DNA of 33,160 nucleotides from a virus, in IMG/VR virus record IMGVR_UViG_3300028008_001749, positions 1 to 33,160 of that record. One strand, 5' to 3'. Shown in pieces: positions 6,507 to 27,767 of this stretch (position 1 is the first letter of the stretch; every line of letters begins with the position of its first letter). The notes below the pieces were generated by a model that was given only the letters and a program-made list of their open reading frames with translations, ran no database searches and had not been told where the DNA came from. A program made the translations under genes and the position numbers.

Positions 6507-6908
6507 TTAATTATTTTTTGTTGCGTCTGTTACTTCTGGTAATTTAAATGCATTTGCATTTTCTTCTACTTTTTCCATATCAAAGTTAATGCTTTCTCCA
6601 CAACCACAACTGCTTGCCGCTGATGGATTAACAATTTCTAACATAGTACCCATAAGGTCTTGTTTAAGTTCAAGTGTTGTGCCTACTAAAAACATAATAC
6701 TTGAGCTGTCAACTGCCATCTTTTTTCCATTATCCATAAGTATAACATGATCTGCTTTAGTGTCAAGTTCTGATTCTTCTTTTAGTTTCCATTCGTAACT
6801 AAAACCTGCACACCCACCACCACGTAAACCTAATACTGGAATCTTATTATCATTTGATTCACTTATACCTGTTAAGTGATTCATAGCTTTTTCTGTAATC
6901 TTAATCAT
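6507..6908 (-). CDS. A-type iron-sulfur carrier (IscA/SufA/ErpA family)
   Basis: Carries and transfers [2Fe-2S]/[4Fe-4S] clusters or iron to target proteins. 133 aa. The three ligand cysteines are present: Cys33 in RGGGCAGFSYEW, and Cys101 and Cys103 in SSCGCGESINF, which is the diagnostic C-x(60-70)-C-G-C pattern. Core strands PVLGLRGGG and HVILMDNGKKMAVD are normal. A C-terminal extension of about 22 residues (EENANAFKLPEVTDATKNN) exceeds the usual ~107-aa length. The ATG overlaps the apt stop (ATGA). A-type carriers are known auxiliary genes in marine myoviruses; here one stands with Nfu, SufT-like, ferredoxin and an iron permease. Confidence 0.93.
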   Translation of the reverse strand: MIKITEKAMNHLTGISESNDNKIPVLGLRGGGCAGFSYEWKLKEESELDTKADHVILMDNGKKMAVDSSSIMFLVGTTLELKQDLMGTMLEIVNPSAASSCGCGESINFDMEKVEENANAFKLPEVTDATKNN

Positions 6909-7432
6909 TCTTTTGCTCCGTACAATTGGACTATATGTAAATCTTGTAGTCCTTTGTTGAGATATTCTAAGTTAACAAGTGTTACTGCTCCAATAACTTG
7001 GGCACCTGTCTGCTCAACCAATCTCTTGGTAGCTAACATGCTACCTCCGGTTGCTATTAGGTCATCTGCAATTAATACTCTGCTTGTATGACCAAGTATA
7101 CCTTCTTGCAATGTTAGTGTATCACTTCCATATTCAAGTTCGTATGTTTCTTCTAATAGTACTCCTGGGTATTTAGCACCTTTCTTACGAACCATTGTAA
7201 AATTCATGTTCATTTCTTGTGCTAAAGCGGCACCAAGTACAAATCCTCTGCTCTCAATACCTATAATATGAGTAATATAAGCATCATCAAAATTCTCTTC
7301 ACAGTCTGTTGCTAAAGATCTTACGCAGTCTGCCCACATATTACTGCTGAACAGACTATTTAAATCGTAAAAGTTTACACCTTTAACAGGATAGTCTGGA
7401 ACTGTTCTTATGAATTGTTTAATGTTTTTCAT
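6905..7432 (-). CDS. apt: Adenine phosphoribosyltransferase
   Basis: Converts adenine plus PRPP to AMP. 175 aa, standard length. Motifs: N-terminal IRTVPDYPVKGVNFYD (8-23), IIGIESRGFVLGAALA (56-71), VRKKGAKYPG (81-90; substrate loop), EYGSDTLTLQEG (100-111), and the PRPP-binding VLIADDLIATGG (119-130). All residues typical of the family are visible, so it should be active. The ATG overlaps the stop of the coiled-coil gene (ATGA). It consumes the PRPP made by the phage's own Prs and would recycle adenine released on host nucleic-acid breakdown (inference). Confidence 0.95.
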   Translation of the reverse strand: MKNIKQFIRTVPDYPVKGVNFYDLNSLFSSNMWADCVRSLATDCEENFDDAYITHIIGIESRGFVLGAALAQEMNMNFTMVRKKGAKYPGVLLEETYELEYGSDTLTLQEGILGHTSRVLIADDLIATGGSMLATKRLVEQTGAQVIGAVTLVNLEYLNKGLQDLHIVQLYGAKE

Positions 7433-7617
7433 TGACTGGATACTTTTTTAATTCTATCCATAATTGCAGTAAATTCAGTAATTTCTTCACGTAGTTCAGT
7501 AATTTCTTCAGAGAGGTCAGCAATGCGAATTTCACAATCCTCAACCTTACGTTCTCTATCACGAACCTTACGTTCTCTATCACGAATCTTTTTCTTATAA
7601 CTTGTTATGTCTGACAT
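7429..7617 (-). CDS. Short charged coiled-coil protein
   Basis: 62 aa, nearly all charged and helical: SYKKKIRDRERKVRDRERKV, then DCEIRIADLSEEITELREEITEF, with heptad-spaced I/L positions typical of a coiled coil. The RDRERKV unit is duplicated by a perfect 21-bp DNA repeat. The ATG is 3 bases from the nfu stop, with GGAG upstream. No family recognised; such small coiled-coil proteins often act as multimerising adaptors. It lies between Nfu and APRT. Confidence 0.7.
   Translation of the reverse strand: MSDITSYKKKIRDRERKVRDRERKVEDCEIRIADLSEEITELREEITEFTAIMDRIKKVSSQ
7543..7584 (-). repeat. Perfect 21-bp tandem repeat, two copies
   Basis: The 21-mer starting AACCTTACGTTCTC occurs twice in direct succession (7543-7563 and 7564-7584) without a mismatch. 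It is in frame inside the coiled-coil gene and adds exactly one heptad. Confidence 0.95.
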
Positions 7618-7619
7618 AG

Positions 7620-7964
7620 TTACTCCGTTTCTGTTGGTGGGAAATCATCTTCAGTTGGAAAATCATAATACCCACTAGGGTCTGAAGTGTAGTATGGATC
7701 ATTATACATCGGATCGTCTTCACTTGTAACACCTTTAATTTCAGGAATGAAATGCATTAAGGTAGATTCAACTCCTAATTTAAGTGTTTCCGTACTACTA
7801 GAACAACCACTACAACTTCCACTCATCTGAGTGTGAAGAACTCCTGTTTCTTCATTAAAGTTAATTATATTAATCTGTCCACCGTGTTGAGCAACGTTAG
7901 GATTAATATATTCTTCCATAACTTTATCAATTTCAATAAGTAACTCTTCTTTAGACTTACTCAT
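7620..7964 (-). CDS. Nfu-type Fe-S scaffold/carrier (NifU C-terminal domain)
   Basis: Small Fe-S cluster carrier that passes [4Fe-4S] clusters to apoproteins. 114 aa. The Nfu domain covers about residues 7-80: VMEEYINPNVAQHGGQINI (15-33) and the cluster-binding GSCSGCSSSTETLKLGVE (49-66) with Cys51 and Cys54 (C-x-x-C), ending IPEIKGV. An acidic, Tyr/Pro/Asp-rich tail (DDPMYNDPYYTSDPSGYYDF) follows and is not part of the family; it looks disordered. The ATG at 7964 has GAGGT upstream. It overlaps the upstream micro-gene by 8 bases. Confidence 0.92.
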   Translation of the reverse strand: MSKSKEELLIEIDKVMEEYINPNVAQHGGQINIINFNEETGVLHTQMSGSCSGCSSSTETLKLGVESTLMHFIPEIKGVTSEDDPMYNDPYYTSDPSGYYDFPTEDDFPPTETE

Positions 7965-8109
7965 ATTTGTACCTCGTCTTTCTAATATCCATCATATGGA
8001 TACTACGTTCAATTTTTTCTTCTTTACGTCTAGCAAATTTGTAACCAGCGAAAAAAGATAGTGCCATTACTGCTCCAATAGCTAGCAAGTGCCATACTAA
8101 AAATGTCAT
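7957..8109 (-). CDS. Single-helix membrane micro-protein
   Basis: 50 codons between the 55-aa gene and nfu. The protein starts MTFLVWHLLAIGAVMALSFF, one N-terminal membrane helix (2-23), followed by a basic cytoplasmic-type tail FARRKEEKIERS and a second charged stretch DIRKTRYKYE. The ATG overlaps the upstream stop (ATGA) and the stop overlaps the nfu start, so both ends are tightly packed into the operon. No family recognised. It may be a partner of the iron permease two genes upstream (inference from proximity only). Confidence 0.65.
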   Translation of the reverse strand: MTFLVWHLLAIGAVMALSFFAGYKFARRKEEKIERSIHMMDIRKTRYKYE

Positions 8110-8273
8110 ACTGTTTCTCCTTTGTTTATCACCTCTTGAATGTGGTGATGTGGATATGCCTTCGGGCGTACCTCTTTGATTTTTTCTAAATATTTCTGTG
8201 CTTCTGCTTCAGTATGGAAACGTGCAACAGAAACTTCGTCGTGTATTCTTGGTGTATAAATTATATCGTACAT
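8106..8273 (-). CDS. Hypothetical 55-aa protein
   Basis: The frame starts MYDIIYTPRIHDEVSVARF, contains the helix HTEAEAQKYLEKIKEV (20-35) and then YPHHHIQEVIN with three consecutive histidines (42-44). The layout (beta strand, strand, helix, strand) resembles a small ferredoxin-like or DUF-type domain, but I recognise no family. Position directly after the iron permease gene and the HHH run make a metal-related role conceivable, without proof. Its stop overlaps the next ATG. Confidence 0.65.
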   Translation of the reverse strand: MYDIIYTPRIHDEVSVARFHTEAEAQKYLEKIKEVRPKAYPHHHIQEVINKGETV

Positions 8274-8287
8274 ATTTTTTCCTTATA

Positions 8288-8860
8288 CTAGTGTACTACG
8301 TGTATATGTGTAATTGAATAATAGTGCATTATTGCCTCATATCCAAACCATAATGCAAATACTAAAAATGCATAACGTGTAATTTTAAATAACACATTAG
8401 CTGGTACTTTGTGTTTAATTAGTGGGAACGTTCCTGCAATTAATACAACTGCAATTGATGCGGAGAACCAACCGTTCCATGTATTATTAATTGGCATAAG
8501 CATGAAAATAAATATTTCAGAACTTTCTCTAGCAAAAATAATAAACATTGTAATAAGTCCTGCCCAGCTCGTTGCACCAGCTGACCCTACCTTTTCAATA
8601 CTATTAACAATTTGTTGACCTATAGCACTTGCACTAAAAAATAGATAAAGCATTAATGCTGATAAAGTACCATACATAAGTCCCTCATATGGTGCTAACA
8701 AGTTTGCCATTTGCCAACCTATTACGACTCCAGCAATAATACCTAAAAAGGCAGATGTAATCATACTCCAATTTAACTTAATAAATGTCATAATCATTAA
8801 TGTTATAAACATTATTTCTAAGGCTTCTCTGCCTACTATAAAAAATGGTGCTCCTAGCAT
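8288..8860 (-). CDS. FTR1/EfeU-like iron permease
   Basis: 190-aa polytopic membrane protein with about five or six hydrophobic segments. Two R-E-x-x-E iron motifs characteristic of the FTR1/EfeU family lie inside helices: REALE (11-15) in FFIVGREALEIMFITLM and RESSE (111-115) in MFIIFARESSEIFIFML. This duplicated helix-with-REXXE layout is the family hallmark. It is shorter than E. coli EfeU (about 276 aa), so some helices are reduced. The C-terminus ends in a His-rich THIHVVH. I chose ATG 8860 because AAGGAG precedes it; the longer frame would run into the ferredoxin gene. Substrate Fe is inferred from the motifs; neighbours (ferredoxin, Nfu, SufT-like) fit. Confidence 0.8.
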   Translation of the reverse strand: MLGAPFFIVGREALEIMFITLMIMTFIKLNWSMITSAFLGIIAGVVIGWQMANLLAPYEGLMYGTLSALMLYLFFSASAIGQQIVNSIEKVGSAGATSWAGLITMFIIFARESSEIFIFMLMPINNTWNGWFSASIAVVLIAGTFPLIKHKVPANVLFKITRYAFLVFALWFGYEAIMHYYSITHIHVVH

Positions 8861-8861
8861 A

Positions 8862-9206
8862 TTAGTCTCCTTCGCCCGGCTTTTCTGAAAGTAATTCACG
8901 TTTGTTTGGTTTGCCAGCCCACTCTTTTGCATCTGGTGGTGGGTCTTTCATTGTAGTTATGTTTGGCCATTTTGCAGAATAATCGGTATTTACTTTCATC
9001 CAATATTCTAGCTCTGAACCTTCAATGGCTCCGTCAGCAACAATTGCATCTACTGGACATTCTGGCTCGCATACACCACAATCAATACATTCGTCTGGAT
9101 TTATTACTAGAAAGTTTTCACCTTCATAGAAACAATCAACAGGACAAACTTCTACACAATCTGTATGTTTACATTTAATACAATCTTCTGTTACTAAATA
9201 TGTCAC
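8862..9206 (-). CDS. fdxA: Seven-iron ferredoxin (FdxA type)
   Basis: Electron carrier with one [3Fe-4S] and one [4Fe-4S] cluster. 114 aa, matching FdxA/Azotobacter FdI length. Cysteines at 9, 17 and 50 fit the 3Fe cluster and 21, 40, 43 and 46 the 4Fe cluster; the extra cysteines 12 and 25 of the family are also kept. Diagnostic strings: [17 protein letters not shown] and [16 protein letters not shown]. The C-terminal [18 protein letters not shown] is also standard. Translation starts at a GTG (9204-9206) since the family start M-T-Y-x-V-T is reached exactly there; AGGAG lies about 10 bases upstream. Likely redox partner for Fe-S or oxygenase enzymes of the phage or host (inference). Confidence 0.95.
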
Positions 9207-9211
9207 TTATA

Positions 9212-9508
9212 TTATACTCCTAAAATTAGTCTTGTATCTTCACTCATTTTATCCGGTCCAAAAGGTGGATCGAATGTTATTTTGACATCGCATGTTTCAA
9301 CGTTGTCTACTTTCGTTACTGCTTCATGAACTTCCGCTATGATCTCGTCTGCGGCTGGACAAAATGCACTAGTTAATGTCATAACAATATCAACGTGTGC
9401 CTTATCAATATTTATTTCGTAAATTAAACCCAAATCATATACGTTTATACTGATTTCTGGGTCATATACAATTCTTAAATTTTCAATAATTTTTTCTTTA
9501 TCAATCAT
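9212..9508 (-). CDS. MIP18/DUF59 (SufT-like) Fe-S maturation protein
   Basis: 98 aa with the full DUF59 core: VYDPEISINVYDLGLIYEI (14-32), VMTLTSAFCPAADEII (42-57) with the conserved Cys50, and KITFDPPFGPDKMSEDTRLILG (76-97, family ending pattern). Bacterial SufT/PaaD-like members and eukaryotic CIA2 help load Fe-S clusters onto enzymes. The start at ATG 9508 was preferred to the longer frame because it overlaps the SGNH stop (ATGA) and the family domain begins right after it. It is 5 bases from the ferredoxin start. Stands with Nfu, A-type carrier, ferredoxin and iron permease. Confidence 0.9.
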   Translation of the reverse strand: MIDKEKIIENLRIVYDPEISINVYDLGLIYEINIDKAHVDIVMTLTSAFCPAADEIIAEVHEAVTKVDNVETCDVKITFDPPFGPDKMSEDTRLILGV

Positions 9509-11281: not shown

Positions 11282-12005
11282 GAGCATATCTAATATGTTG
11301 TCTAACTACTTTTTCTGGTGTTGCATCTCTCTTGTGCAATACTTTGTGATTATTATATACCAACAGTTGTTTTGGAGACCAAGTATGAGAATACATATGT
11401 TTTTCTTTATATATTTCCTCCTGAAATTGTTCTTCTAACTCTGTTTCTGTATATGCTTCGCTGTAAAAGTAGAATGGGCCATAATCATCTTCCCATACTA
11501 AATCATGTGTCGCTCTATTGAACCTTCTCCAGGCTCTTTCTTGTAACTTACTCTTAAATTTATAAGGATACTCTTCCTGACTCATGTACTTCGTAATACT
11601 GTTGACGCATTTTACGTCTTTTGCTTGTTCTTTTAAACTGTTACTACTATCTTTATATACGCCTTGCATATCTAAGTAGTGTGTTTGGCTAGATCCTTGA
11701 TCAGCACGTATACAATACAGTCCAACAAATGGGTGCATTGCATCACTGTATGCTCTGTCTTGATGCCAAAGCATATCAGTTGCGTGGTTTAGTTTTTCAC
11801 CCTTTTCATCTTCAATGCCAATTGTAACTTTTTTTCGACCATACATATCTTGATCTAAAAGTTTACCAAAATTATTAATAGTTTGCTCATCTGCATCTTC
11901 AACACATATAATACCATATGCACCATTTTGAAAGTCATCAACTAAAGTAGGAGTTATATCAGCTACTTTGATGTTGTGTAAGAATTTATATTTTTCTATA
12001 GTCAT
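11256..12005 (-). CDS. 2OG-Fe(II) oxygenase, TauD/TfdA-like
   Basis: 249 aa. The facial-triad iron ligands can be seen: His81 and Asp83 in DMLWHQDRAY (HxD), and a distal His around 220-224 in YNNHKVLHKRDATP, followed by RQHIRY with the 2OG-binding Arg (235-239). LLVYNNHKVLH matches the TfdA-type distal motif. Substrate unknown. Family enzymes hydroxylate small molecules using 2-oxoglutarate and O2. The ATG at 12005 overlaps the end of the upstream gene by 20 bases. A second, more divergent oxygenase lies one gene upstream (12549-13490), with an acyltransferase-like gene between. Confidence 0.8.
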   Translation of the reverse strand: MTIEKYKFLHNIKVADITPTLVDDFQNGAYGIICVEDADEQTINNFGKLLDQDMYGRKKVTIGIEDEKGEKLNHATDMLWHQDRAYSDAMHPFVGLYCIRADQGSSQTHYLDMQGVYKDSSNSLKEQAKDVKCVNSITKYMSQEEYPYKFKSKLQERAWRRFNRATHDLVWEDDYGPFYFYSEAYTETELEEQFQEEIYKEKHMYSHTWSPKQLLVYNNHKVLHKRDATPEKVVRQHIRYALDKTTELV

Positions 12006-12549
12006 TTGTTAACGGGTTCTTTCCTCTCCATATTATATGTTGCCAGCATTCGTCACCATCACATGGTGCAGTTTGCCATTCATAATCTTCTAGTACCCAA
12101 TCTTTGTACTTGCAATTATGATTTAATCCTCTATGTAGATTACGCATTACTTTAAAATTACCATGCTCTCTACTTATAAAGTGTTTAGTTAAACCTTGGG
12201 ATATTGCATAATCTACTTGTTGATCTGCATGCTCCGCTGTAAACGTACTTAGTCCATTTACATGGTACTTATGAATACGTAGTCCTTTTTGTGCTATATT
12301 AAGTTTTTTACTTGTATAATATCTACTTAATACTCTAACACCGCCATTGTAAAAATCTCTTGTTCTTGCAACACTACCTGCAATTGGATCACCTTCGTCA
12401 TCCCATGTTAAACTGTAACATAAATTTTCTTCACTGCTTAAACTCTCTATCTCATAATTATGAGGCATTCTATTTAATGAATCTTTTAATGATTCTTCAA
12501 ATAATGTAATAAGTTCTAAGGGTATCCAATCTGTAGTTTCTGTATGCAT
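11986..12549 (-). CDS. Unknown protein, remotely acyltransferase-like (GNAT?)
   Basis: 187 aa. Features: an N-terminal helix (LELITLFEESLKDSLNRM), a strand with ENLCYSLTWDDEGDPIAGSV, then RVLSRYYTSKK and later QQVDYAISQGLTKHFISREH and FKVMRNLHRGL, an order of strand-strand-helix-strand-helix that resembles GNAT N-acyltransferases (helix QVDYAISQG before strand and REHGNFKVMRNLH as acceptor helix). No clear acetyl-CoA Q/R-x-x-G-x-G/A loop is visible, so the call is weak. The ATG overlaps the upstream oxygenase stop (TAATG). The plus-strand gene at 14615 has a similar order of elements. Confidence 0.45.
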   Translation of the reverse strand: MHTETTDWIPLELITLFEESLKDSLNRMPHNYEIESLSSEENLCYSLTWDDEGDPIAGSVARTRDFYNGGVRVLSRYYTSKKLNIAQKGLRIHKYHVNGLSTFTAEHADQQVDYAISQGLTKHFISREHGNFKVMRNLHRGLNHNCKYKDWVLEDYEWQTAPCDGDECWQHIIWRGKNPLTNDYRKI

Positions 12550-22676: not shown

Positions 22677-25370
22677 TTACCACTCAAACAAGTTAGTAAA
22701 CGTAGTTTTAGCCGCGGCTTTGTCTAAACCCCAATCCAATACACCAAGTAAGTTTTCTAGCTTCTTAGTAACTACCACTTCTTCCATGTGATCATCATCA
22801 AACGGAAGTTCTTTAAACCATTCAGGAAGCCTTGTTTCGTCTGTAGGATATCCTACACTTGTAAAGCCCATTGGATTATCTTTTAATCTACAAACAATAG
22901 TTTTCATACCATCTGTAATTTCTACTGCGTAATTATCACTATTAATCTGTCTTAGCTTATTCCAATTCAATGCGGCTGTTACGTGTCCAGGCATTGCTGG
23001 CTTCTTAACTTCTTTAACACTTTTACCGTTGTCGTGTGCTCTTTTACGATCTCTATCATAAGTTGCCATTTTACCACGATATGATGTTAAGTTATTAACA
23101 CGTTTAGGACTACCTTTTTGCCAACTAGGCTTTTCACGATACTCTTTACGAAACTCAATAATCTTCTCAAGTATGTCTTGTTCTTCAGCATCTGTTAATA
23201 CTTCAAGCAATACGTCTTTTAAAAAGTCTTGCATCCATACAGGAGTATCACTACGTTTTAGATCTAACCCCATTGCTTTAATGTAACCAGCTTTGCCTTC
23301 TACATCTTCACGTTTGCCTTCATTATCAAACACTAACATTGCATAACGTTTCTTTGTAATAAACAATCCACTACTTCCTACCATTTCTCTACCTGCAGCA
23401 ATAATACTGCCCAAGTCTAATGTTGTATGAAAGGTTCTACTCATAAAACCAGGAAACGTTTTGTTTACTTCTTCACAGATTGCATCATAGTAATCAATTA
23501 TATTATCTCTATCCCAATTAATTTCATTGTTCTTAATTTGATCTTTTAACATAGGATACGAACTAAAGTATGTGGAATCTGTATCACCATATACAATAGC
23601 CTCGCCTTGATGATCATATTCGCCTGCAATAATTTTATTAAGTTCCGCAGCCATGTGCTTTGCAATACAACGACCTGTTAGTGTTGTACTCTGTCCTAGT
23701 CTACTGTCAAAGAATCTACTGCCAGGATTAAGTAACGCACCATACAAACTGTTCAAGTTAATCTTTTTAACTAGCTGTCGTTTATCCCAATATGCAAACT
23801 TGTCGCCACCTTCTTCACGTGCATCACGTGCTTTAGCTTGTAGCTCTTTACGTTCTGCATACCAACGTTCTAGCAAGCCAGGAATAATACCTTTTTTCTC
23901 GTATGTAAAAATTGTACCGTTGGCACTAATAATCCAAGGTTGTCCACTGTTAAACACAATTTCATATATCTCTGCGCCAGTTGCTTCAAAACTAGTGCCA
24001 TCTTCAAAATCTAAATGTAGTACTTCTTCAATGTCTTTGTTAATAACAAGTTCATATTCATGTGTTGCAAAACGACCTTCCCATGCTTCAGCTACTGTTT
24101 TTGCATTCTCAATCATTTCTTTTGTGTACGAGTGTCGCACTTGCCCAATAATAGTTTCAGTACTCATATTACAACTACGAATAATACTAGGATACAGTGA
24201 GTTCAAGTCAATACTTCCAACCCATTTATGTAAGCCTTTTTTAGGCGTAGCAACATAAGCACCTGCGGCTTGTGTAGTATCTTTGTCATAACGTTTGTCA
24301 GGAACAATAAGTCCTTGCGAGTGTGCTTCGTTAATAATAGCTTGGTCTGTTTGTGCAACCGCACCCATTGTTGTTTGTAGAAGCACTGTGTTAGAGTGTG
24401 CTAGTACGTTTGCTAAATCAATAAACTGTAGTTTTTTATCTAGTTTTACAAGCAAGTCAACATCTTGTCTAGAATAAGCAATAAACTTTTCAAAGTCATT
24501 GTTATATAATTGATCTAGTGTGCCTTCATAATCTACTTTACGATCACCTAGTTCATATTCACCAATAGCATCCAAACTATAACTGTGCATTTCATGATAT
24601 GTATACTTACGATACAACTGCATGTAATCCATATGTACACGACCAATGGTATCATATGTTTGTTGTGTTGCACCAAATCGTTCAAATTCACGTTGTTTAG
24701 GAAGTTTATCCCACAAGCAAAAACGTCTTGTATGACTTTTACTTAATACTCGAGCTACACGATTAACTAGATAAGGAATATCAAAGCCTTCACTGTTCCA
24801 GCCTGATAAAATATCTGCATCATCTATGAGATCCAAAAATGCTTCAAGCATTTCACGTTCAGTTTTAAATAGCATAGTATTTTCAAACTTATTAGTAACT
24901 GTTTCTGCTTGATCAAACGTCATAGTTTTAGGACCAATAGCAAGACATATAGTTGTATTCATCCAAGTATTATGCAAACTAATTGCTGTTACTGCATTAA
25001 ACGGATCATGTGGCGGTGCAAAGCCTGACTCTTTATTAAAGTCTGTCTCAATATCAAAGAAACAAACATTTAGATCTGGCGTTGCACTAGGATCATAATT
25101 TTCAGCGAATGTTTTAAATATAACATTTACATCGCTTTCATATAGACCTTTATGTCCATTAATCTTTTTTTCTGTATTAAATTTTTTACTTGTGTTGCAA
25201 ACAACACGTTCTAATTTTTCACCAAAGATACTTGTGTATTTTCCACGTGGGTCTTTATAATAGAATGTATACTTGGCGGGAATTTCTTTATATTCTCGCT
25301 TTCCGTTAATACGTTCTACAACGTGTACAATGTCTTTATCTCGATCGTGAAATGCATCTACATAACTCAT
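22677..25370 (-). CDS. 43: Family-B DNA polymerase (T4 gp43-like)
   Basis: Replicative polymerase with proofreading exonuclease. 897 aa, the same size as T4 gp43 (898). ExoI: FFDIETD (104-110; Asp106, Glu108); ExoII: NSEGFDIPY (192-200); ExoIII: YSRQDVDLL (299-307). Pol motif A: DLNSLYPSIIRSCN (388-401); motif B: KKINLNSLYGALLNPGSRFF (535-554); motif C: YGDTDSTYFS (594-603; Asp596, Asp598). KKRYAML-type region near 660-680 is also present. The end TTFTNLFEW looks like a clamp-binding tail, as in T4/RB69 gp43. ATG overlaps the radical SAM stop (ATGA). All catalytic residues are present. Confidence 0.97.
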   Translation of the reverse strand: MSYVDAFHDRDKDIVHVVERINGKREYKEIPAKYTFYYKDPRGKYTSIFGEKLERVVCNTSKKFNTEKKINGHKGLYESDVNVIFKTFAENYDPSATPDLNVCFFDIETDFNKESGFAPPHDPFNAVTAISLHNTWMNTTICLAIGPKTMTFDQAETVTNKFENTMLFKTEREMLEAFLDLIDDADILSGWNSEGFDIPYLVNRVARVLSKSHTRRFCLWDKLPKQREFERFGATQQTYDTIGRVHMDYMQLYRKYTYHEMHSYSLDAIGEYELGDRKVDYEGTLDQLYNNDFEKFIAYSRQDVDLLVKLDKKLQFIDLANVLAHSNTVLLQTTMGAVAQTDQAIINEAHSQGLIVPDKRYDKDTTQAAGAYVATPKKGLHKWVGSIDLNSLYPSIIRSCNMSTETIIGQVRHSYTKEMIENAKTVAEAWEGRFATHEYELVINKDIEEVLHLDFEDGTSFEATGAEIYEIVFNSGQPWIISANGTIFTYEKKGIIPGLLERWYAERKELQAKARDAREEGGDKFAYWDKRQLVKKINLNSLYGALLNPGSRFFDSRLGQSTTLTGRCIAKHMAAELNKIIAGEYDHQGEAIVYGDTDSTYFSSYPMLKDQIKNNEINWDRDNIIDYYDAICEEVNKTFPGFMSRTFHTTLDLGSIIAAGREMVGSSGLFITKKRYAMLVFDNEGKREDVEGKAGYIKAMGLDLKRSDTPVWMQDFLKDVLLEVLTDAEEQDILEKIIEFRKEYREKPSWQKGSPKRVNNLTSYRGKMATYDRDRKRAHDNGKSVKEVKKPAMPGHVTAALNWNKLRQINSDNYAVEITDGMKTIVCRLKDNPMGFTSVGYPTDETRLPEWFKELPFDDDHMEEVVVTKKLENLLGVLDWGLDKAAAKTTFTNLFEW

Positions 25371-26641
25371 TCAGGGCTAATCCAATATTTTTCTAGTTGT
25401 GGTATATATTTAAGTATACTTGTTTTTCTGTGTTTGTCAAGTAATTCTGTTGTTTTACAGAAGAATTTCCAATTATCTTTATCTTCTGCTGTGTAAGGTT
25501 TTTTAAGTAAGTGTACTACTCCTCTTAGTACATGGTCTTCTGGACTATTCCATCTACTAAAACATTTTTCTTCGATCCAACTTGCTAACCATAATCTATA
25601 TTCTATATCTGGATGCACTTGTAAACAAAGATAAATTGGAGCAACAAGAGCTGCATTAAATCCAGTAAGATCGTTTAACTTACTTTTTCCATAATGTTCG
25701 TGTTCCCATAACCATTCAATGTAAGGTTTAATATTATACATATTAAGTAACTGTGGTGTATAAGAAATACCTACATGAAATAACTTACTACAATCAAGTA
25801 TTCGTTGTTGAATCAGTTCACCCTTGTATTTTCCAATAGTTCCAACTGCTGGTCTTATATATTCATATACATCACCAATAGCATCTAAACTTACTACAAG
25901 TCTAGTATTGAGTTTTTTTAATTTTTCAGTTTTTTCTTCATCAAGCAAAGTTAAGTTTGTTACAATTTTTAAATCGCCTTGGTAATTATGTTCAATTAAC
26001 TTATCTACCATATGCCAAAACTCTGGTTGGAAAAAAGGTTCTCCACCACTACATTCAATTAGTTTACATCCAAGAAATACTTCTAAGTTTTCGTCAACAA
26101 CACGAGCTGGAACTACATATTGTTTTTGTTCCATTCTTGTTCCTGCTACTGCTCTATCAACTTCTTTAATAGGCATATTATCCATCAACATGTTAATATC
26201 TTTATACCAACCTGTGCTACGTTTTGGACTACACATAGTACATCTAAGATTACATGCGTTACTAAAATCTATTGAGAATTTATGAATACCTTCGTGATGT
26301 CTTGGATTTCCAGGGTCATTCCATTCATGTTGTGAACCAAACCTATGACTCCATCCTGATTTATTTTCTGACTTTTGACAACGTCCACATCCATCAGGCC
26401 ATACTTTTTGTTTTGTATTAGCTCTTACTTCTCCTGAATCTTTATTCCAAAAGAAATCCTTTGCTTTTACATCTTTTATGTTTCCAAATAAACCTTTTCT
26501 ATATTGACAACAGAATCCATAATCTCCAAAGTTATCAACATGTACTTCATTATGTGGAGCAACACAATAAGTATTTTCAAGATCAGCTTTCCAGTGAACC
26601 AGAGAATCTTCTGGTATCTCACCTTTGTAAGCATGCATCAT
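25367..26641 (-). CDS. Radical SAM protein with N-terminal auxiliary Cys region (twitch-type)
   Basis: 424 aa. Radical SAM motif SNACNLRCTMCSPKRS with Cys130, 134 and 137 (C-x3-C-x2-C), and the SAM-contacting GGEP motif (CSGGEPFF). Additional cysteines precede the core: FCCQYRKG (44, 45), CGRC (85, 88) and Cys26, suggesting an auxiliary Fe-S cluster in front of, not behind, the SAM domain. This matches phage proteins annotated as twitch-domain radical SAM. Substrate unknown. The start at ATG 26641 was chosen because AAGG precedes it; the track's longer TTG frame overlaps the methyltransferase. The stop overlaps the polymerase ATG. Confidence 0.85.
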   Translation of the reverse strand: MMHAYKGEIPEDSLVHWKADLENTYCVAPHNEVHVDNFGDYGFCCQYRKGLFGNIKDVKAKDFFWNKDSGEVRANTKQKVWPDGCGRCQKSENKSGWSHRFGSQHEWNDPGNPRHHEGIHKFSIDFSNACNLRCTMCSPKRSTGWYKDINMLMDNMPIKEVDRAVAGTRMEQKQYVVPARVVDENLEVFLGCKLIECSGGEPFFQPEFWHMVDKLIEHNYQGDLKIVTNLTLLDEEKTEKLKKLNTRLVVSLDAIGDVYEYIRPAVGTIGKYKGELIQQRILDCSKLFHVGISYTPQLLNMYNIKPYIEWLWEHEHYGKSKLNDLTGFNAALVAPIYLCLQVHPDIEYRLWLASWIEEKCFSRWNSPEDHVLRGVVHLLKKPYTAEDKDNWKFFCKTTELLDKHRKTSILKYIPQLEKYWISPE

Positions 26642-26654
26642 TGTGCCTTTTTGT

Positions 26655-27767
26655 TTATCGTTTTTCAAAAACGTATACTCCTTCAAATTTTTCTCTGCCA
26701 GCTAGTTTATCGTTACCTACACCTGGTCTAGTATTTAACATCATTTTAATCGTGCCCGTATGCTTGAACCCAACTTTTTCAGCCGTTTCAATCCAGCGGT
26801 CCACAACAAAGAATTCCTTGTTGCCATATGATTTATAGTCTGCGATGTTCGTTGCGAACGTTCCATCGCTTCGTAGTCCTCTTCTGATATTCGAGATAGT
26901 AGGTTCAACATACCCTTCAAACCATTCATCAAGGGTTGTATATTTAACCATGCATTGTGTTTCTTCGTCACTGTACTTCTCCAAATTAAAATACGGTGGA
27001 CTACTAAAAGCTAAATCAATATCTTCGCATTGGTAATCTTCTGAACCAGAACATATAAATTCAGCATCAGCTCCTAATAATTCATTTAAGTAATTTAAAT
27101 ATTTAATTGTTTCTGTATTAGGATCCGTACCTATGTATTTATAGTTTAAGTTGCTACTACTAATACCCAAGAGACGACCGCCATAACCACAACTGTAATC
27201 ATAAATGCGACCCCACAATACCGGGCATAAGCGTTCTGCCAAAGCTCGGGCGTGTTGAGGTTTAAAGTTCTGCACGTTTTCTCCTGTGACAAGTTCCAGT
27301 GAACGGCGTAATGCAGTAGGATATACAAGGCGATTCCCATCCCTAAACTCAAAGCATATTCTGATAGCCCTGCGTAATTTAGCATCATCGTAAAATCTAT
27401 CCTTTAATGAATTAGATCCTCTTCCTTTTGGTTCTGCTGTTTGCATGTTGGTAAAGAGGAATCTGTTAATAGTTTGACCGGCGTTGTTACCGAGTCCAAT
27501 TCTGTCAACAGACACACCGTTATATGACTTGGTTCGAAACCCTTTGATTTCATTTCTAAGTCCTTCTTCGGTGTAGTATATAATTGGTACAATGCCACGA
27601 TTACGATACAAAGAAAAAACAGCCTCAATAGTACCTGCAGGATCTTTCTCATATGTTTCTTTCGTATGCTTATCAAATTCTGGGTACAGGTCTTCATAAC
27701 CTGTAAACACATCGTTAAAGATATGTTCTGGTTTAATACCCCAGAATTGATAAATTGTGTCTATCAC
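26655..27767 (-). CDS. DNA methyltransferase (m4C/m6A amino-type)
   Basis: 370 aa. Motif I region: IYDYSCGYGGRLLG (188-201); catalytic motif IV: DLAFSSPPYFNLEKYS (251-266), with S-P-P-Y, used by N4-cytosine and some N6-adenine methyltransferases. C-terminal VGFKHTGTIKMMLNTRPGVG fits the end of the Rossmann domain. An N-terminal ~150 residues (WGIKPEHIFNDVFTGYEDL) lacks known motifs and may recognise DNA. No restriction gene is adjacent, so an orphan enzyme, perhaps for protection or regulation. The start is GTG 27765-27767, overlapping the DsbA TAG (TAGTG); no Met occurs before residue 108, so the GTG is needed. Confidence 0.85.
   Translation of the reverse strand: MIDTIYQFWGIKPEHIFNDVFTGYEDLYPEFDKHTKETYEKDPAGTIEAVFSLYRNRGIVPIIYYTEEGLRNEIKGFRTKSYNGVSVDRIGLGNNAGQTINRFLFTNMQTAEPKGRGSNSLKDRFYDDAKLRRAIRICFEFRDGNRLVYPTALRRSLELVTGENVQNFKPQHARALAERLCPVLWGRIYDYSCGYGGRLLGISSSNLNYKYIGTDPNTETIKYLNYLNELLGADAEFICSGSEDYQCEDIDLAFSSPPYFNLEKYSDEETQCMVKYTTLDEWFEGYVEPTISNIRRGLRSDGTFATNIADYKSYGNKEFFVVDRWIETAEKVGFKHTGTIKMMLNTRPGVGNDKLAGREKFEGVYVFEKR

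Follow-up and report, generated by a model that had tools for sequence, protein, structure and literature searches.

A T4-like marine virus whose genome carries genes for iron-sulfur (Fe-S) proteins raises the question of what a phage would do with them, as cofactor supply is seldom viewed as a phage's own burden. The genome is represented by a 33-kb IMG/VR fragment (the whole stretch analyzed, hereafter the window). Fe-S AMGs reported from marine viromes are single genes, namely sufE, nifU, iscU and erpA (PMC8940887, PMC9038755), and such AMGs have been proposed to boost sulfur oxidation (PMC10721903). Larger sets were described by Nishimura et al. (2017) who, in the passages concerned, list T4-like marine genomes, such as TARA_ERS488813_N000010, with an A-type carrier, IscU, a PaaD-type DUF59 protein, ClpP, glutaredoxin and up to 12 radical SAM genes, and already propose a supply to viral Fe-S enzymes (PMC5332604). 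As argued below, the operon in the window may encode the delivery steps of an Fe-S cluster biogenesis pathway that belongs to the phage and chiefly matures radical SAM enzymes, a reading to which we assign a probability of roughly 60%.

The genes lie in one minus-strand run that encodes a DUF59 protein, an FdxA-type ferredoxin, a membrane protein, two micro-proteins, an Nfu protein and an A-type carrier (Table 1). Family matches, ligand cysteines and distances of −8 to +14 bp between adjacent genes bear out the initial annotation in placing the named genes in one operon. Situated between Nfu and the A-type carrier are genes for an adenine phosphoribosyltransferase, which is no part of the Fe-S function, and a coiled-coil protein, so that the operon is not devoted to Fe-S functions alone. 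The operon also contains nucleotide-salvage, MazG, RpiB, ClpP and Cpn10-like genes. A promoter scan gave a count not above that of shuffled sequences.

Table 1. Positions of the Fe-S operon genes and of a radical SAM gene in the window.
Feature	Position	Strand	Remarks
DUF59/FeS_assembly_P protein (SUF-associated, SufT/PaaD-like)	9212..9508	-	98 aa; PF01883 8.5e-17
FdxA-type seven-iron ferredoxin	8862..9206	-	114 aa, GTG start; NF045490 above cut-off; phrog_8732 3.3e-43
Putative mini-FTR1 permease	8288..8860	-	190 aa, predicted helical membrane protein, two RExxE motifs
Micro-protein 1	8106..8273	-	55 aa, HHH
Micro-protein 2	7957..8109	-	50 aa, one hydrophobic helix
Nfu-type Fe-S carrier (NifU C-terminal domain, CSGC)	7620..7964	-	114 aa; PF01106 6.1e-21
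Coiled-coil small protein, same operon	7429..7617	-	generic coiled-coil matches only
Adenine phosphoribosyltransferase, same operon	6905..7432	-	NF002636 above cut-off
A-type Fe-S carrier (IscA/ErpA-like)	6507..6908	-	133 aa; PF01521 1.4e-10; TIGR00049 above cut-off
Radical SAM enzyme (CxxxCxxC)	25367..26686	-	PF04055 8e-15; CNLRCTMC at residue 145

The ferredoxin scores 162.6 bits against the NF045490 cut-off of 135, which identifies it as an FdxA equivalog, and its cysteines at positions 9, 12, 17, 21, 25, 40, 43, 46 and 50 have the layout of a seven-iron ferredoxin; its start codon in the nearest relative is ATG. The Nfu protein combines its PF01106 domain with C51-x2-C54, as expected of an Nfu carrier, and the cysteines of the A-type carrier, C33-x67-C101-G-C103, conform to the C-x(63-67)-C-G-C pattern of that family, in agreement with its PF01521 and TIGR00049 matches. 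The DUF59 protein matches TIGR02945 at 6.3e-33, yet falls under that model's cut-off. Matches to the DUF59 protein and the A-type carrier in INPHARED records of Listeria, Staphylococcus, Acinetobacter and Salmonella look like host DNA and were excluded.

About 20 further contigs of marine viruses, with identities as low as about 55%, keep the same gene order, the conservation of which had been suggested as a check, and dN/dS relative to the nearest relative is 0.03–0.30 for each cassette gene (0.03 for both the DUF59 protein and the A-type carrier), indicating purifying selection. The cassette is therefore not a product of chance. That its members are unrelated auxiliary genes that happen to be neighbors in one long early operon would fit the salvage, MazG, RpiB, ClpP and Cpn10-like genes found there, but even in highly divergent viruses the Fe-S genes remain next to one another and, in one relative (G013), a gene for the cysteine desulfurase IscS has been added directly after Nfu, ahead of the A-type carrier. 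This explanation is disfavored and we consider it very improbable. The earlier suggestion that the two micro-proteins may belong to the set gains support, as both are kept in the cassettes of L001, L004, L006 and L021, with dN/dS values of 0.28 (micro-protein 1) and 0.12 (micro-protein 2).

It had also been proposed that these genes form a complete supply line from iron import to delivery. This does not hold for the window, as neither a cysteine desulfurase nor a scaffold is present among its scanned proteins, and it thus lacks a complete ISC or SUF pathway, although the rest of the genome beyond the 33-kb fragment may contain them. Both do occur in relatives. The nearest, G001 (204 kb), has the cassette together with IscU, ferredoxin-NADP reductase (FNR) and glutaredoxin, that is, a scaffold without a desulfurase, and in G009 IscU adjoins SufE. 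Desulfurase and scaffold are found in the same genome in G003, which encodes IscS, IscU, FNR and the permease, and in G008, where IscS, IscU, a small protein and FNR are consecutive. Judged by these two parts, the ISC pathway is complete in these relatives. The assignments in G003 and G008 were made by domain search, with curated models for both IscS and for the G008 IscU. In the relatives, IscS scores 719–733 bits (cut-off 643) and has the active-site Cys and Lys motifs, while IscU scores 210–222 bits (cut-off 192) and has all three cysteines. With the bacterial ISC pathway the relatives thus share IscS, IscU, carriers, a ferredoxin and a reductase for it, but the phage ferredoxin is of the seven-iron FdxA type, whereas the isc operon encodes a 2Fe-2S Fdx, and the phage parts are scattered and, measured against the whole bacterial pathway, incomplete in any single genome.

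What the clusters are used for is suggested by the enzymes that these viruses encode. TauD-type oxygenases and fatty-acid desaturases contain non-heme iron and not Fe-S clusters. Of the clients initially put forward, the two 2OG oxygenases and the di-iron desaturase are for this reason set aside and the radical SAM protein is retained as the sole Fe-S client among them; from its cluster motif, it is the one clear predicted [4Fe-4S] client in the window. The relatives encode 8–25 radical SAM genes each, whereas nine tailed phages used for comparison have 0–5, as raw counts uncorrected for shared ancestry. Radical SAM enzymes are the likeliest clients, and charging the many such enzymes of these viruses is probably the purpose of the cassette. 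In the mechanism we propose, Nfu and the A-type carrier would take up clusters during infection and pass them to apo-enzymes, with the DUF59 protein aiding cluster targeting. FdxA would supply electrons and be reduced by the phage FNR where one is encoded. The IscU scaffold and a sulfur donor (IscS, or SufE aiding the host desulfurase) would be phage-encoded elsewhere in some relatives and host-derived in others, and the shortened FTR1-like permease, an optional component, probably imports extra iron across the inner membrane.

An alternative is that the Fe-S genes support the energy metabolism of the host rather than phage enzymes, for instance by aiding respiration or the oxidation of sulfur in a host resembling Thioglobus, as has been suggested for SUP05-type viruses. 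Phage IscS is nested within the Pseudothioglobaceae (100/99), which implies contact with that group, and the proposed sulfur-oxidation role of Fe-S AMGs (see above) is in line with this. Phage IscU, however, lies outside the Pseudothioglobaceae grouping, no sulfur-oxidation gene is present among the scanned window proteins, and the large radical SAM complement is encoded by the same genomes, so a role in host metabolism seems unlikely. Because the IscS and IscU placements disagree and just 15 of 83 Pseudothioglobaceae genomes yielded an FdxA, no host is assigned to the window.

The Nfu and DUF59 families have roles in both repair and maturation under stress. The cassette might accordingly serve the repair of oxidatively damaged clusters or late iron detoxification, with the permease exporting or buffering iron, and in L042 a rubrerythrin-like protein is encoded near FTR1. 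On the other hand, the de novo parts in relatives (IscS, IscU and FNR) point to synthesis, and neither peroxidase nor ferritin was found in the cassette, making such a function less probable still than one in host metabolism.

Maturation of the phage's own radical SAM enzymes remains the preferred reading, and the phage set is a fuller version of the Fe-S gene sets published in 2017. Both concern T4-like marine viruses with an A-type carrier and a DUF59 protein, while the permease, FdxA, Nfu, IscS, SufE, ferredoxin reductase and a conserved operon go unmentioned in the pertinent passages of that paper (PMC5332604). The initial claim of novelty was to this extent overstated. No paper on a phage FTR1, or on a phage IscS or ferredoxin reductase, was found in the open-access literature. 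The virome AMGs belong to the same individual families but are reported as isolated genes and not as a conserved cassette; an Nfu domain is also present in cyanophage P-SSM2. A bolder and more tentative proposal, which we hold to be somewhat less probable than its negation, is that some T4-like marine phages can make Fe-S clusters almost without outside help, with iron import, a desulfurase, a scaffold, an electron supply and carriers of their own, all dedicated to charging their approximately 20 radical SAM enzymes. Infection would then install a virus-owned metallocofactor economy. If phages do bring both Fe-S biogenesis and iron import, the unusually large radical SAM arsenals of these viruses become explicable in a testable way, and in an ocean poor in iron, phage and host may become rivals for it.

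The nature of the membrane protein is central to iron import. Its start is at 8860 (MLGAPFF) and not at 8932, and its two RExxE motifs, REALE (residues 11–15) and RESSE (111–115), are within the predicted first and fourth helices, at places corresponding to those of FTR1/EfeU (PF03239, TIGR00145). Phage permeases are shorter, however, at 177–190 residues versus about 275, and neither EfeO/EfeB nor a ferroxidase was noticed in their vicinity. While the domain searches proposed at the outset returned PF01883, PF01106 and PF01521, the permease as a single sequence has no Pfam match, PF03239 included, and its partial match to TIGR00145 (5.3e-5) scores 23 bits against a cut-off of 303.8, far from an FTR1/EfeU assignment; the permeases of the two nearest relatives are barely above the PF03239 cut-off. 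The viral family as a whole does align with FTR1 (hhalign 97.9%, 4.9e-13, 166 columns; controls with reversed FTR1, a desaturase and FeoB all gave values of at least 0.08), consistent with homology to the transporter core. The FTR1-like label of the initial annotation is thus upheld at the level of the family. Judged from profile comparison, where alone the remote kinship is visible, the permease is a predicted shortened FTR1 with both RExxE motifs.

Whether it transports iron is a separate matter. An FTR1-fold phage protein with another role, for example in exclusion or lysis, would be consistent with the low single-sequence scores, with the many copies that adjoin the sliding clamp away from Fe-S genes, and with one subclade (L119–L121) in which IECLE replaces the first RExxE. 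Yet 19/19 full-length copies, that subclade included, have retained the acidic residues of the two motifs, E12, E15, E59, R111, E112 and E115 are invariant in eight aligned viral copies, dN/dS is 0.10–0.30, and in a separate kind of virus record a full FTR1 (2.4e-34) is joined to Nfu and DUF59. A non-transport role is therefore rather doubtful. Only 8 of 26 viral permease copies are within the cassette and most cassettes are without one, and so the permease, initially taken as a fixed part, is an optional module.

Viral relatives of the permease were found only by searching with an alignment of relatives; the permease alone as query gave no viral match and, in INPHARED, one insignificant match. 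No cellular mini-FTR1 was found in genome contigs by a pattern-limited search, or in 274 gammaproteobacterial genomes by a search run without a positive control. A structure comparison using the AF2 model of moderate confidence (pLDDT 72.6) matched nothing, and a PDB sequence search gave no solved structure related to FTR1. The phage permease may therefore offer a compact relative (about 180 aa) of a family that, by sequence search, lacks a solved structure. Comparison of its two halves, as for an internal repeat, gave an E-value of 0.001 and a probability of 21%.

The window, an IMG/VR virus record of 33,160 bases, falls among the T4-like viruses because its T4-type clamp loader matches phrog_168 (3.8e-76) and its family-B DNA polymerase matches phrog_262 (3.9e-197). 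Its Fe-S genes form a single tight run on the minus strand, with intergenic gaps of −8 to +14 bp, in the order DUF59 protein, the ferredoxin FdxA, a membrane protein (the permease), two micro-proteins, Nfu, a coiled-coil protein, adenine phosphoribosyltransferase (APT) and A-type carrier. Domain and profile searches and a residue check returned the same families and ligand residues as the initial annotation. Against its nearest relative every cassette gene has a dN/dS of 0.03 to 0.30, and all are therefore under purifying selection. Viral contigs were searched with Nfu, DUF59 and A-type carrier and the window proteins were mapped onto the loci obtained, and the anticipated recurrence of this neighborhood in other marine viruses was found: the order DUF59-FdxA-(permease)-(micro-proteins)-Nfu-APT-A-type carrier-MazG is conserved in about 20 distinct contigs, counting cassettes whole or with parts missing, down to a ferredoxin identity of only 55–60%. 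The micro-proteins, suggested earlier as possible members, both travel with the cassette in four loci (L001, L004, L006, and L021).

The permease had been assigned to FTR1, and this holds at the level of the family. Searched as a single sequence, it finds nothing in Pfam and matches EfeU/FTR1 weakly and in part. When 20 viral copies are combined into a profile, 166 columns align with FTR1 proteins (probability 97.9%, E 4.9e-13), against E values of 0.08–0.33 when the target is reversed FTR1, a desaturase or FeoB. Of the 19 full-length viral copies, 16 carry both RExxE motifs; in L119–L121 the first reads IECLE, losing the Arg and keeping the acidic residues. By sequence, the permease is thus classed as a shortened FTR1 relative of 177–190 residues. 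Its AlphaFold model is a helical membrane protein of moderate confidence (pLDDT 72.6), and the helix pattern predicts six membrane crossings. An alignment of six viral relatives yielded 25 viral loci, and the permease is an optional part of the cassette: in the window and in seven of these loci it comes after FdxA, and in the other 18 it lies elsewhere, often adjoining the sliding clamp. L109 and its relatives L101–L112, which form another T4-like clade, have it overlapping the end of a sliding clamp-like gene.

A full FTR1 directly precedes Nfu and DUF59 (L030, 2.4e-34; L042, 2.0e-30) in virus records of a different kind, whose viral nature rests mainly on IMG/VR. Iron permease and Fe-S carriers were joined there independently of the window's cassette. 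Nfu in both has an additional N-terminal part, and L042 encodes a small rubrerythrin-like protein just ahead of ClpP.

Contrary to the earlier claim, the supply line is not complete in the window, which has neither sulfur donor nor scaffold; in some relatives it nearly is. The nearest, G001 (204,772 bp, polymerase 98% identical), encodes IscU and ferredoxin-NADP reductase (FNR) about 2.4 kb apart, with glutaredoxin about 4 kb beyond. G008 has consecutive IscS-IscU-small protein-FNR; G003 has IscS, IscU, FNR and permease, and no recognizable DUF59 was found in it. In G013 IscS lies right after Nfu within the cassette and SufE is also present, and in G009 SufE adjoins IscU. Curated models identify as true members the IscS of G003 (733 bits) and of G008 (719 bits; cut-off 643) and the IscU of G001, G008 and G009 (210–222 bits; cut-off 192); G013 IscS and G003 IscU were assigned by domain searches and are 75% and 79% identical to proteins passing these models. 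SufB/D was not found in the T4-like relatives. A 328-kb viral-classed record (G018, comprising L037, L136, L140 and L141) has SufS, SufB/SufD-like genes and DUF59, and may be cellular. The phage IscS sequences branch within Pseudothioglobaceae (100/99) and trace to two independent origins; the weakly resolved IscU tree places phage IscU outside this family. For the IscS-bearing relatives, to which this reading is confined, a gammaproteobacterial host is plausible, possibly a Thioglobus-like one.

Radical SAM enzymes require at least one [4Fe-4S] cluster and are abundant in the relatives, so they are probably the likeliest clients. G001, G003, G013 and G009 (a 99-kb piece) carry 18, 25, 21 and 18 such genes, and further relatives 16, 15, 9 and 8. 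By the same search, and uncorrected for ancestry, nine comparison phages (T4, S-PM2, P-SSM2, S-SM2, HTVC008M, KVP40, Atu_ph07, GAP32, and marine virus AG-345-L05) have 0–5 versus 8–25 in relatives. G001, G003, G007, G009, G013, G015, and G021 are unusually rich, with 9–25 per record. The window's TauD-type oxygenases and desaturase, earlier counted as clients, use non-heme iron; they are therefore no clients for Fe-S clusters and could benefit only from imported iron.

One study describes marine T4-like genomes that encode an A-type carrier, IscU, the DUF59 protein PaaD, ClpP, glutaredoxin and as many as 12 radical SAM enzymes, and proposes that viral enzymes are supplied with Fe-S clusters in this way (Nishimura et al., 2017, PMC5332604). 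Single Fe-S genes are repeatedly reported from marine viromes (PMC8940887, PMC9038755), and an Nfu domain also occurs in cyanophage P-SSM2. Hence the cassette is a fuller, operon-level form of known sets, and its iron-permease-like optional component is new; the open-access literature yielded no report of phage FTR1, IscS or ferredoxin reductase. Alongside the observed identities, order, conservation and co-occurrence of the genes, we propose that they would act during infection, the permease moving iron inward, FdxA working with the phage reductase, and radical SAM enzymes receiving the clusters.

Coordinates of features in the window and in related viral loci
Feature	Location	Remark
Divergent sigma-70-like sites	window:14545-14608	12/12 on +, 10/12 on −
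TauD, unknown gene, TauD, fatty-acid desaturase	window:11256-14212	unknown gene 11986-12549
DUF3291-like protein	L001:10533-10817	94 aa, adjoins APT
ClpS-like gene, full FTR1, Nfu, DUF59, ClpP in a row	L030:8433-10920	
Same row	L042:8364-11404	
Mini-FTR1, IECLE subclade	L119:5971-6504	
Mini-FTR1, IECLE subclade	L120:5995-6531	
Mini-FTR1, IECLE subclade	L121:5995-6531	
Mini-FTR1 and sliding clamp-like gene	L109:5261-6537	

The strong sigma-70-like sites lie between the window's two gene blocks of opposite transcription; the total count of such sites in the surrounding region is not above chance. The DUF3291-like protein has no counterpart in the window and neighbors APT in many relatives, also in L020, L105, L120 and L121. 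L001 and L021 retain the TauD/desaturase block intact, at 75–97% identity.
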